31,784 nucleotides of DNA from assembly GCA_030652805.1 (NCBI GenBank), contig JAUSPT010000022.1, forward strand, positions 1 to 31,784, read 5' to 3'. The notes under the pieces were generated by a model, which did no database searches, was not told the DNA's origin, and saw nothing but the letters and a program-made list of their open reading frames with translations. Within the stretch, counting starts at the first letter, position 1; each line of letters starts with the position of its first letter. The stretch comes from a bacterium (lineage in GTDB: Bacteria > JAHJDO01). The position numbers and the translations under genes are program-made. Below, in pieces: positions 6,103-24,743 of this stretch.

Positions 6103-6121
6103 CTGTTGAATTTTTGATGTT

Positions 6122-7676
<1,555 letters not shown>

Positions 7677-7749
7677 AAGGTTGTGTTAAAGAAAGATGAC
7701 AAAGACCGCTGAATTCGCTTAAGTAAATTAAATGTAGTTATAGGCAGTT

Positions 7750-7825
7750 GGGCCTATAGCTCAGCTGTGGTTAGAGTGCACGCCTGATAAGCGTGAGGTC
7801 GATGGTTCAACTCCATCTAGGCCCA
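7750..7825 (+). tRNA. tRNA-Ile (anticodon GAU)
   Basis: The acceptor stem GGGCCTA / TAGGCCC is perfect, and the anticodon loop CTGATAA gives GAT. TTCAA is the T-loop motif. The discriminator base is A and CCA is not encoded. Its place in the 16S-23S spacer is standard. Confidence 0.95.
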
Positions 7826-7897
7826 CAAAAAGTGGCTAAGTTCGCTTACTATTAGCTGATAGCTACGGGCTTTTGGCTAACAGTGAAAGTGCAGCTT

Positions 7898-7970
7898 GGG
7901 GGTGTAGCTCAGTTGGGAGAGCGCCACACTTGCACTGTGGATGTCGCAGGTTCGACTCCTGTCATCTCCA
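7898..7970 (+). tRNA. tRNA-Ala (anticodon UGC)
   Basis: The acceptor stem GGGGGTG pairs with CATCTCC using two G-U pairs. The anticodon stem CCACA/TGTGG closes loop CTTGCAC, which gives TGC. TTCGA is the T-loop motif. CCA is not encoded. This is the second standard spacer tRNA. Confidence 0.95.
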
Positions 7971-7985
7971 CTATAGAAGTTTTTT

Positions 7986-7995
7986 TGTTCTTTGA
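7986..7995 (+). promoter_or_regulatory. Second boxA-like site, before 23S
   Basis: TGTTCTTTGA is identical to the first ten bases of the leader site at 6076 and lies between tRNA-Ala and 23S, the usual place of the spacer boxA. Confidence 0.5.
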
Positions 7996-8042
7996 AAATT
8001 GAAAATATAGAGAAAATGGCTAAAGAAAAGTTTTAAATTTAT

Positions 8043-11080
<3,038 letters not shown>

Positions 11081-11102
11081 TAAATTATTTTTTTAAAGAA
11101 TT

Positions 11103-11218
11103 CCCGGTAGTGATAGGAGAGGAGAAACACCCGTTCCCATTTCGAATACGGAAGTTAAGCTCTCTACCGCCGATGGTACTATTCTGGTGACGGAATGGGA
11201 GAGTAGGTAGCTGCCGGG
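11103..11218 (+). rRNA. rrf: 5S ribosomal RNA
   Basis: The terminal helix CCCGGTAG / CTGCCGGG closes a 116-nt molecule containing the conserved CCCATTTCGAATACGGAAGTTAAGC-type core near 11135-11160 and GATGGTACT near 11172. It lies directly after 23S. Nine T residues follow immediately (11219-11227), so operon termination probably occurs right at its 3' end. Confidence 0.94.
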
Positions 11219-11227
11219 TTTTTTTTT
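11219..11227 (+). terminator. T-run ending the rRNA operon
   Basis: Nine consecutive T residues abut the 5S 3' strand. No separate hairpin lies between, so folded 5S helices would have to supply the termination stem. Confidence 0.45.
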
Positions 11228-22492: not shown

Positions 22493-22578
22493 TAAAAAAA
22501 TGCAAACATTTACATAGGAAATTATAGAAAAGAAGGAGATGATACGATAAAAGTCAAAATAGGTGAAAAGCTCTAGAT

Positions 22579-22762
22579 TATTGGTGGTATGATAAATATC
22601 AATAGTCTGGGGTAGATAGGTTATAGGTTGAATTTTTTGGTGGGGCTTAGTTGACCCCGGGAAGGAGATTAATCGAACCTGTAACCGAATAGTCACCATA
22701 GGCCAAGACGAGCCTGGATAGGAGGATGGTGTTCACCGACAAATAGTTCTACTCCGAAGACT
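22579..22762 (+). ncRNA. Candidate IS110 bridge RNA
   Basis: The non-coding left end folds by eye into a bridge-RNA-like plan. A basal stem pairs 22604-22615 with 22749-22762 (12 pairs, two-base bulge). It encloses stem-loop I, 22619-22629 with 22676-22686 (11 pairs, one G-U), whose internal loop carries a GGGG/CCCC hairpin (22642-22658). It also encloses stem-loop II, 22694-22699 with 22726-22731, containing AGGC/GCCT (22700-22703 and 22712-22715). A weak 5' hairpin (22579-22604) precedes. In IS621, the target- and donor-binding guides lie in two such internal loops, and the RNA sits in the same place upstream of the recombinase. Confidence 0.6.
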
Positions 22763-22785
22763 GCAACTGAAAAGGAGGAATAGAG

Positions 22786-23811
22786 ATGGGAAGGTATATC
22801 GGAGTGGATCTGCACAAGAATAACTTTACAGTGTGCTACATGAATGAGAGAGAGGAACACAAAATCCAGAGTTTCAGAGTAGATGCGGGGAGCATCGGGA
22901 TGTTTCAGAAGAGTCTTAGTAAGAGTGATGAAGTAGCTGTAGAATCGACTGGTAATACAGCATACTTTGTAAGGGAAATAGATAGTTTGGTAAAAACAGT
23001 TAAGATTATTAATCCGACACAGTTTAAGGTTATATCCCAGTCGATAAAGAAAACAGATGAGCGCGATGCGGCAACAATCGCTAGATACCTTAGCAAAGGG
23101 CTAATACCAGAGGTAAGAATGCGAAGTAAAGAAGAATCACAGGTAGCAAGTTTAATAAGCACAAGAGATAAGTTTGTAAAGCTAAGAAGTGCATTAAAGA
23201 ATAAAGTACATAATATTCTTAATGCCAACGGGATAGTCACAAAACGAGAAATATTTGGTTCAGAGAAAGGGCTTGAAAGGGTTTTAAATTTGAATTTAGA
23301 TAGTTCTTATTTATTTGAGTTGAGAATTATTGTTGATCAGATACGAAATCTGAATAAATCAATAGACGAAATAAATAAAGAGATGTCAGATAGAGGAAAG
23401 AAGATAAAAGGACATAAGAATCTAAAATCTATTACAGGCATAGGTGATATATCAGCTACGATTTTGCTTAATGCAATAGGTAATGTGAATGATTTTGATA
23501 GTGATAAGAAATTAGCTGCATATTTTGGAATAGTCCCCAGAGTATATATATCTAACCAAACAAGTCATTATGGAAGAATTACCAAGATGGGTAATAAAAT
23601 AGCTCGGACAGCCCTTGTGCAGTCAACACTCATAGCAATAAGATACAACAATTACTTAAGAAACTTTTATCTTAGACTGAAAACGAAGAAAGGTAGCGGA
23701 AAAGCAATTATTGCCACAGCAAGAAAACTGTTGGGCATAATTTATCGTACTTTAAAGAATGATTGGGTCTTTGAAAACTTTAATGAATTTACATTGGTTA
23801 CAAATAACTAA
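22786..23811 (+). CDS. IS110-family transposase (DEDD recombinase)
   Basis: The N-terminal RuvC-like domain has Asp8 in IGVDLHK, Glu53 in AVESTGN and Asp91/Asp94 in KKTDERDA, the DEDD set. A coiled-coil-rich middle (about 110-210) leads to the C-terminal Transposase_20 domain: ITGIGDISATILL, LAAYFGIVPRV, and ISNQTSHYGRITKMGN with a probable catalytic serine at Ser256. The length of 341 aa is normal, and the gene has no frameshift, so the enzyme may be active. AAAGGAGG lies eight bases before the ATG, just after the candidate bridge RNA. Confidence 0.95.
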   Translation: MGRYIGVDLHKNNFTVCYMNEREEHKIQSFRVDAGSIGMFQKSLSKSDEVAVESTGNTAYFVREIDSLVKTVKIINPTQFKVISQSIKKTDERDAATIARYLSKGLIPEVRMRSKEESQVASLISTRDKFVKLRSALKNKVHNILNANGIVTKREIFGSEKGLERVLNLNLDSSYLFELRIIVDQIRNLNKSIDEINKEMSDRGKKIKGHKNLKSITGIGDISATILLNAIGNVNDFDSDKKLAAYFGIVPRVYISNQTSHYGRITKMGNKIARTALVQSTLIAIRYNNYLRNFYLRLKTKKGSGKAIIATARKLLGIIYRTLKNDWVFENFNEFTLVTNN

Positions 23812-23817
23812 AAATGT

Positions 23818-23837
23818 CTGAAGAAATAGGTCTTCAG
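23818..23837 (+). repeat. Hairpin just after the transposase gene
   Basis: CTGAAGA (23818-23824) and TCTTCAG (23831-23837) form a perfect 7-bp stem with a 6-base loop. It lies within the presumed right end of the insertion sequence, six bases after the transposase stop. It is not followed by a T-run, so it is more likely an end-recognition or mRNA-stability structure than a terminator. Confidence 0.6.
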
Positions 23838-23876
23838 GTAGAACTAAATTTTGACTTTTAACATAGGAGCGTAAAG

Positions 23877-24743
23877 ATGTCAGATAAAGACATTTTCCCT
23901 CTGGGAATTATGGTAGGTCTTTCAGAAGACTCTGAAAAGGATTTGCAAAAAGTAAAAGATATGGGGTTCCCGACCTGTCAGATTCAGAATCCCACCGAGG
24001 AATATGTTTCTGGCCCGAAAAGCGATGAACTGTGCCAGCGGCTCAGAGATGCCATTAAACAGACAGGTGTAAAAATATCAGCTGTGTTTATTATGTATAA
24101 AGGCCATATCTGGGACAGGAAGGATGGCCCCCGCACAATAGGTCTTGTCCCTGAGAATACCAGAGCAGAAAGAACAGCGCATGCTTGCAGTATATCTGAC
24201 TGGGCGAAAAAAGCAGGTATTAATACAGTAACCAGCCATATGGGGTTTATTCCCGAAGATGCCACCAGCGGGGTGTATAAAGGTTTTATAGAGACGATGA
24301 AAGAGTTTGTGGCTTACTGCGCAAAAAACAACCAGATATTTGCTTTTGAAACAGGCCAGGAAACTCCTGTGGTTTTGAGAAGGACCATAGATGATATAGG
24401 GGCAGATAATATTGGGGTCAATCTGGATCCAGCCAACCTGCTCCTTTACGGCATGGGTACTCCAATGGAGGGTGTTGAGGCCTTTGGTGAGTTTGTGGTC
24501 AATACCCATTGTAAGGACGGAAAATGGCCAACAGAGGAAGGTAAATTGGGTAAGGAGATGCCCTTGGGACAGGGAGATGTGAACTTTCCTGAACTACTAC
24601 GGGCTCTATATGCAAAAGGGTTCAGTGGTCCGCTGACCATAGAGCGAGAAATTCATGGTGACCAGCAGAAAAAAGATATTTTGGAAGCCAAAGTTATTCT
24701 TGAAGGGATAAGAAAACAACTTGTCAATGTAGGAGTGCGATAA
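23877..24743 (+). CDS. Sugar phosphate isomerase/epimerase-like TIM-barrel protein
   Basis: This 288-aa protein belongs to the xylose-isomerase-like/AP-endonuclease-2 superfamily. Probable metal ligands are Glu158 (FAFETGQE), Asp184 (NLDPANLL), His211 (VNTHCKD) and Glu256 (LTIERE). The substrate is unknown. AGGAG at 23864-23868 is its ribosome binding site and overlaps the presumed right end of the insertion sequence. A broken Gfo/Idh/MocA oxidoreductase follows by one base; the pair isomerase plus oxidoreductase is a common sugar or inositol catabolic module. The gene itself is intact. Confidence 0.88.
   Translation: MSDKDIFPLGIMVGLSEDSEKDLQKVKDMGFPTCQIQNPTEEYVSGPKSDELCQRLRDAIKQTGVKISAVFIMYKGHIWDRKDGPRTIGLVPENTRAERTAHACSISDWAKKAGINTVTSHMGFIPEDATSGVYKGFIETMKEFVAYCAKNNQIFAFETGQETPVVLRRTIDDIGADNIGVNLDPANLLLYGMGTPMEGVEAFGEFVVNTHCKDGKWPTEEGKLGKEMPLGQGDVNFPELLRALYAKGFSGPLTIEREIHGDQQKKDILEAKVILEGIRKQLVNVGVR

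Follow-up and report, generated by a model that had tools for sequence, protein, structure and literature searches.

The stretch of bacterial DNA analyzed here, contig JAUSPT010000022.1 at its full length of 31,784 nucleotides (nt) and hereafter called the window, contains at positions 22535-23869 an intact insertion sequence (IS) of the IS110 family, the left end of which very probably encodes a bridge RNA that would guide a recombinase with DEDD and serine catalytic residues to the Shine-Dalgarno site of host genes, read as NNN-GGAG. An earlier note on this DNA proposed that an intact IS110 element carries a bridge RNA in its left end. This is strongly supported by covariation within the fold, by covariation of guides with both target and donor, by a promoter formed at the circle junction, and by the full set of catalytic residues, and the element appears to be directed by RNA into Shine-Dalgarno sites ahead of genes in such a way that the downstream gene keeps a working site. 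The feature was originally placed at 22579-22762; it does lie there but is larger, with a likely transcript of about 22555 to 22770 inside an element that extends well beyond those limits on both sides (Table 1). At the level of sequence we regard as established the RNA fold, the left-target and right-donor guides, the junctions, the target class, the promoter geometry and the catalytic residues, as well as an empty site in a relative.

Searches of other genomes and plasmids returned related elements at 80%, 61%, 49%, and 34% identity, and a scan of 84,980 species genomes with an alignment of the closest relatives then yielded 80 loci, which come from Omnitrophota (76%), Planctomycetota, Acidobacteriota, Nitrospirota, Pseudomonadota, and others. 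Two scans of viral contigs for relatives found none. The left ends of the relatives align to the window across the whole bridge RNA region.

Folding of the single sequence was unremarkable, with an energy z score of -1.75 and 12 of 200 shuffles folding equally well, and it was rejected as proof of structure; a search of the window against Rfam returned ribosomal RNA (rRNA) and transfer RNA (tRNA) only, with no family matching the bridge RNA region. The question was therefore settled through the relatives. For this purpose, 38 left ends from several phyla were aligned by sequence and not fitted to structure. The results showed that these left ends share the fold, with 87.2% of cells paired and 22 of 33 pairs compensated, that is, changed on both sides. 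The number of cells changed on both sides was 164 in comparison to 60 in the shuffled alignment, and the covariation score was 0.393 in comparison to 0.077 to 0.122 when the partners were slid by one to three columns. The earlier note had looked to the left ends of homologues both for the region itself and for covariation in its stems, and both were found. The pairings that it had picked out by eye are all present in the sequence; the basal stem, the 11-pair stem, and the GGGG/CCCC tip are conserved, but the 6-pair stem (P4a) was rejected as a conserved helix on its pairing figures (Table 1). Its lack of conservation is explained by the right-donor guide, which shares bases with the 5' strand of this stem and covaries with the left end of the element. 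A covariance model built from the homologue set (R1) scored 144.6 bits on the window (E = 1e-40), which is a member of the training set, and matched 24 loci outside the training alignment at E of about 5e-5 or better, including two relatives of 34% identity (L007 and L036). Among the paralogous IS110 elements of the same genome, R1 found nothing beyond one partial match at chance level.

The guide in the first internal loop could be followed in 52 elements. The percentage of elements in which guide bases -3, -2, and -1 equal the host bases left of GGAG was 80%, 90%, and 100%, respectively, where shuffles predict 45%, 68%, and 86% (p <= 5e-5 for each), and guide bases +1 and +2 match the element at the first two positions of its left end in 88.5% and 86.5% in comparison to 77% and 50% expected (p <= 5e-5). 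Across these elements no correspondence was observed with the left flank at guide base -4 and beyond, or with the left end at guide bases +3 and +4. When 6,055 combinations of bridge RNA column and flank position were scanned without bias, the same three contacts ranked highest (22663 with -1, 22662 with -2, and 22661 with -3). Since the left flank is host DNA, this covariation is poorly explained by shared descent. The pairing of guide bases +1 and +2 with the left end may correspond to the handshake guides known in IS621 (PMC11208158), which it resembles; the same two left-end bases were also considered as a shared core and rejected, as they are not repeated at the right junction. In the second loop, the right-donor guide is complementary to left-end position +2 in 33 of 37 elements (17.1 expected) and to position +4 in all 37 (25.3 expected), the latter with three pair types (p = 5e-5). 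For this guide, relatedness of the elements weighs more heavily because both partners lie in the element.

The target was read from the junctions. Almost all homologues have NNN-GGAG at the left junction, directly before the left end, and CATA-GGAG at the right junction, with a start codon after it. The right junction could be resolved in 88 of 91 sites, which pool independent insertions of distinct elements with copies of two multicopy elements. A site was taken to pass when the ATG opened a frame that was at least 40 codons long (20 for copies in genome G014) or that ran off the contig, and an ATG was found 4 to 13 nt past GGAG in 72 of the 88 sites, 56 of these at 5 to 7 nt; among the 16 failing junctions, several have an ATG at the proper distance that opens a short frame. 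In a more lenient control, which also accepted GTG and TTG in the same loci, the percentage of passing sites was 22% for GGAG (n = 2,609) and 29% for AGGAG. The multicopy elements behave in the same manner: in genome G089 (80% identity) all five left flanks are TAA-GGAG and all five right flanks have a Shine-Dalgarno site and ATG, and in genome G014 (34% identity) 15 of the 16 readable copies lie directly ahead of an ATG. In the window, the right junction reads CATA-GGAG-CGTAAAG-ATG and forms the Shine-Dalgarno site of the gene at 23877, the rejoined flanks give AAGAAGGAGCGTAAAGATG, and the 3' end of the host 16S rRNA carries the usual anti-Shine-Dalgarno sequence (7653-7666).

An empty site was sought by joining the flanks of a relative with 49% identity (L035, on the Tardibacter plasmid pHSL4) across one GGAG and querying the result against plasmids. 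The empty site CTCGAAGGAGACAACCGATG, read base by base, is contiguous in Sphingobium indicum pCHQ1, S. cloacae pSCLO_4, and Rhizorhabdus dicambivorans p1, differing from the joined flanks at one or two bases that lie far from the junction and showing no indel at the junction itself; it is the Shine-Dalgarno site of a parB-like gene. Comparison of the occupied and empty forms of this relative, rather than of the window copy, showed that only AGGAG is repeated at both ends, with no further target-site duplication. A search of congeneric genomes for an empty site at the window locus returned only distant paralogues of the downstream gene, and one for an empty site of L086 gave no full-length match. 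The two ends of L168 and L059 share GAG only, and the exchange was thus placed inside GAG; AG, which is CT on the opposite strand, is among the possible positions and is not singled out.

It could be argued that the left end does encode a bridge RNA and that the apparent preference for Shine-Dalgarno sites results from survivorship, with intergenic insertions tolerated and GGAG serving as a short and common core. Selection does act against insertions inside genes, the core is short, and the 2,609 control sites attest how common GGAG is. Nevertheless, survival between genes gives no reason to expect a start codon on the same strand 5 to 7 nt rightward (56 of 72 sites), 15 of 16 copies ahead of an ATG in one genome, or guide bases that track the target bases left of GGAG, and we consider this explanation improbable.

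When the right and left ends of the window element are joined, a -35 box TTGACT (23851-23856) and a -10 box TACGAT (22543-22548) come to lie 17 nt apart. Comparison of 40 elements revealed -35-like and -10-like boxes at the same places, with about 38 conforming and the spacing nearly always 17 nt, and the mean promoter score was 8.3 of 12 in comparison to 6.3 in shuffles. A promoter rebuilt at the circle junction has been described for IS621 (PMC11208160) and ISEc21 (PMC11187229). That the structured left end is instead a cis-acting leader controlling translation of the transposase, with no guide RNA, is very improbable, since, even though the region adjoins the transposase start upstream and its tail includes the transposase ribosome-binding site, its guide segments covary with target flanks outside the element, the geometry of the reconstituted promoter is fixed, and its loops carry copies of both element ends.

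For a bridge RNA directed to Shine-Dalgarno sites, the following cycle can be proposed. The element would excise as a circle, the joined ends of which would rebuild the promoter that drives the bridge RNA. The strand at 22661-22669 in loop 1 would read GGAG together with the target bases to its left, and the strands at 22692-22695 and 22718-22724 in loop 2 would read the left and the right end of the element itself. Recombination within the shared GAG would split the Shine-Dalgarno site and leave GGAG at both junctions, and the downstream gene would retain GGAG at the original spacing to its start codon.

Several points weigh against this interpretation. Transcription, binding of RNA by the protein, circle formation, and strand exchange are presumed here by analogy with work on IS621 and IS1111. 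The element is present once in its own 2.0 Mb genome, and its activity there is thus putative. A right-target guide was sought in 42 elements at all offsets, where the best diagonal reached an unconvincing z of 3.2 among 16, and none emerged from the unbiased scan of columns and flanks, so that the choice of the right side of the target is unexplained; the candidate listed in Table 1 was positioned by analogy. The evidence for the putative left-donor guide is its identity with the right-end terminus, because the segment is nearly invariant across homologues and a covariation test is impossible. The permutation tests also leave some relatedness in, chiefly for the donor guides.

Table 1. Features of the insertion sequence and its putative bridge RNA (positions in the window)
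Feature	Position	Strand	Remarks
Left target GAA, read by guide	22532-22534	+	Adjoins GGAG at 22535; exact empty site known for a relative
Left junction GGAG	22535-22538	+	Left half of split or duplicated host Shine-Dalgarno site; homologue left junctions end NNN-GGAG
Left subterminal inverted repeat TACGATAAAAGTCAAAAT	22543-22560	+	16/18 match to 23848-23865
Bridge RNA	22555-22770	+	Likely 5' end from reconstituted promoter; modelled part 22596-22770
Basal stem P1	22609-22616 with 22748-22755	+	92.8% paired, 6/8 compensated; extended by AGTCT/AGACT
Target hairpin stem P2 (11 pairs)	22619-22629 with 22676-22686	+	About 80-86% paired, 7/11 compensated
Candidate right-target guide, unconfirmed	22630-22641	+	5' side of loop 1
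Target hairpin tip P3, GGGG/CCCC	22642-22658 (22642-22645 with 22655-22658)	+	98% paired, 4/4 compensated
Left-target guide GAA-GGAG-AT	22661-22669	+	3' side of loop 1; 9/9 identical to left junction 22532-22540
Right-donor guide GTCA	22692-22695	+	5' side of loop 2; complementary to left-end +2 to +5 (22540-22543, TGAT; last pair wobble)
6-pair stem P4a	22694-22699 with 22726-22731	+	Weak: 71.1% paired, 1/6 compensated
Donor hairpin tip P4b, AGGC/GCCT	22700-22715 (22700-22703 with 22712-22715)	+	100% paired, 4/4 compensated
Putative left-donor guide ATAGGAG	22718-22724	+	3' side of loop 2; identical to right-end terminus 23863-23869
IS110-family DEDD recombinase, 341 aa	22786-23811	+	D8, E53, D91, D94, S256; motif G--P----SN
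Right subterminal inverted repeat	23848-23865	-	Partner of 22543-22560, 16/18
Right junction GGAG	23866-23869	+	Shine-Dalgarno site of downstream gene; ATG at 23877 after 7 nt; homologues alike

The transposase had been described as an intact DEDD enzyme, and all of the DEDD and serine residues are indeed in place, D8, E53, D91, D94, and S256 aligning with D11, E60, D102, D105, and S241 of IS621. The protein matches PF01548 (DEDD_Tnp_IS110) and PF02371 (Transposase_20), both above cut-off, and NF033542 with 237 bits against a cut-off of 140; the family range is about 300-460 aa. The left end (22539-22785) is longer than the right end (23812-23865), as is characteristic of the IS110 group, and the subterminal inverted repeat is a trait of the IS1111 type (criterion 7-17 bp), well matched in the window and weaker in some relatives. 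In the transposase tree, all 22 tested rows that target Shine-Dalgarno sites, together with three spirochaete rows whose targets are not worked out, form one clade with support of 96/92, apart from IS4321/IS5075 (IS1111 type), IS621, and ISAtu7, only two IS1111-type references being in the tree. The deep order of the tree is unsure because the branches of IS621, L007, and G024 are long. The motif G--P----SN is found in the clade in comparison to SG or TG in IS621 and IS4321, and L007 has SG.

The earlier note had also likened the region to the plan of IS621, which held for the two internal-loop hairpins just upstream of the recombinase but not for the guide order, which is reversed: the left-target and left-donor guides lie on the 3' sides of their loops and the right-donor guide on a 5' side. 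Similar to IS621 (PMC11208160, PMC11208158), the element has a left-end bridge RNA upstream of the recombinase, hairpins that would read target and donor, a DEDD and serine active site, a circle-junction promoter, and no target-site duplication; the differences are an 18-nt inverted repeat in comparison to 2-3 bp in IS621, a shared GAG in place of an established CT core, a Shine-Dalgarno target in comparison to REP elements, and a separate branch of the tree. The IS1111 group (IS4321/IS5075, ISEc11), in which the guide is called seekRNA and a reversed guide order has been reported (PMC11187229), resembles the window element in its long subterminal inverted repeats and also in the order of the target loop, with the segment pairing to the top strand 5' of that pairing to the bottom strand, provided that the 5' side is the right-target guide. 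It differs in that the guide RNA lies downstream of the transposase, whereas in the window and in the homologues matched by R1 it lies upstream, and in that the transposase groups away from IS4321/IS5075, with G--P----SN here against GL-P----S(t)G. An assignment to IS1111 was thus rejected on guide RNA location and on the tree, even though the repeats and guide order agree. By its description, ISEc21 of the IS110 family (PMC11187229) shares the upstream guide RNA, the absence of bases added at the target, the circle-junction promoter, and flanks that both belong to the target, but it targets a codon region in IS3-family transposase genes and has the opposite guide order. In general, the clade combines an upstream guide RNA as in IS110 with a reversed guide order as in IS1111, and long subterminal repeats occur in the window element and its nearest relatives.

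Some other features were observed among the relatives and in the window. Ten relatives, mainly acidobacterial (L043, L048, L050, L052, L053, L057, L091, L049, L064, and L045), have 100-330 extra nt, G+C-rich in many, between the transposase stop and the CATA-GGAG right end. In L035, L062, L063, L065, L067, L071, L073-L075, L079, L080, and others, the transposase stop TAG doubles as the first three bases of the TAGGAG right junction, which makes the right end wholly coding. L116 (at about 300-360) has its right end in tandem duplicate (TCACTTTATCATAGGAGTCACTTTATCATAGGAG) ahead of the start codon, as if an element had entered or left its own end, and in a genome of the same genus as the host (G002, L134) the 3' end of a related element likewise lies on a Shine-Dalgarno site ahead of an ATG. 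The spirochaete relatives L101-L109, mostly from rumen and with 33-36% identity, do not show the modelled left-end RNA; in one of them the model matches weakly downstream of the transposase, and several have GAATTGGAG motifs on either side, which suggests that the guide RNA may have switched ends. In the window, TATACATAGGAGTTAGTT at 340-359, before the open reading frame at 360, resembles the right end of the element ACATAGGAG, either by chance or as a possible remnant, and a complete 16S - tRNA-Ile - tRNA-Ala - 23S - 5S operon at 6121-11219 on the same contig is useful for naming the host lineage.

Known targets of IS110 and IS1111 elements are host-specific, such as REP elements, attC sites, and the ends of Tn21, and no description of insertion sequences targeting Shine-Dalgarno sites was found in the open-access literature, ISfinder entries lying outside this search. 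We consider it likely that a widespread clade of bridge RNA elements has its guide fixed on the Shine-Dalgarno site, that insertion is thereby independent of the host and of low harm, and that the right end supplies the downstream gene with a Shine-Dalgarno site at native spacing. Such a target is present ahead of genes in nearly every bacterium because it is set by the host 16S rRNA. If the guide reads a universal translation signal, this would account for the occurrence of closely related machinery across Omnitrophota, Planctomycetota, Acidobacteriota, Nitrospirota, Spirochaetota, and Pseudomonadota. For tool builders, the clade offers compact recombinases that have a short target, along with guide variants (NNN-GGAG) already present in nature. 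Targeting of the Shine-Dalgarno site would be a natural safe harbour, as the ribosome-binding site of the downstream gene is retained, and the clade, with its mixture of IS110 and IS1111 traits, can help to reveal the way in which the guide RNA switched ends and orientation.
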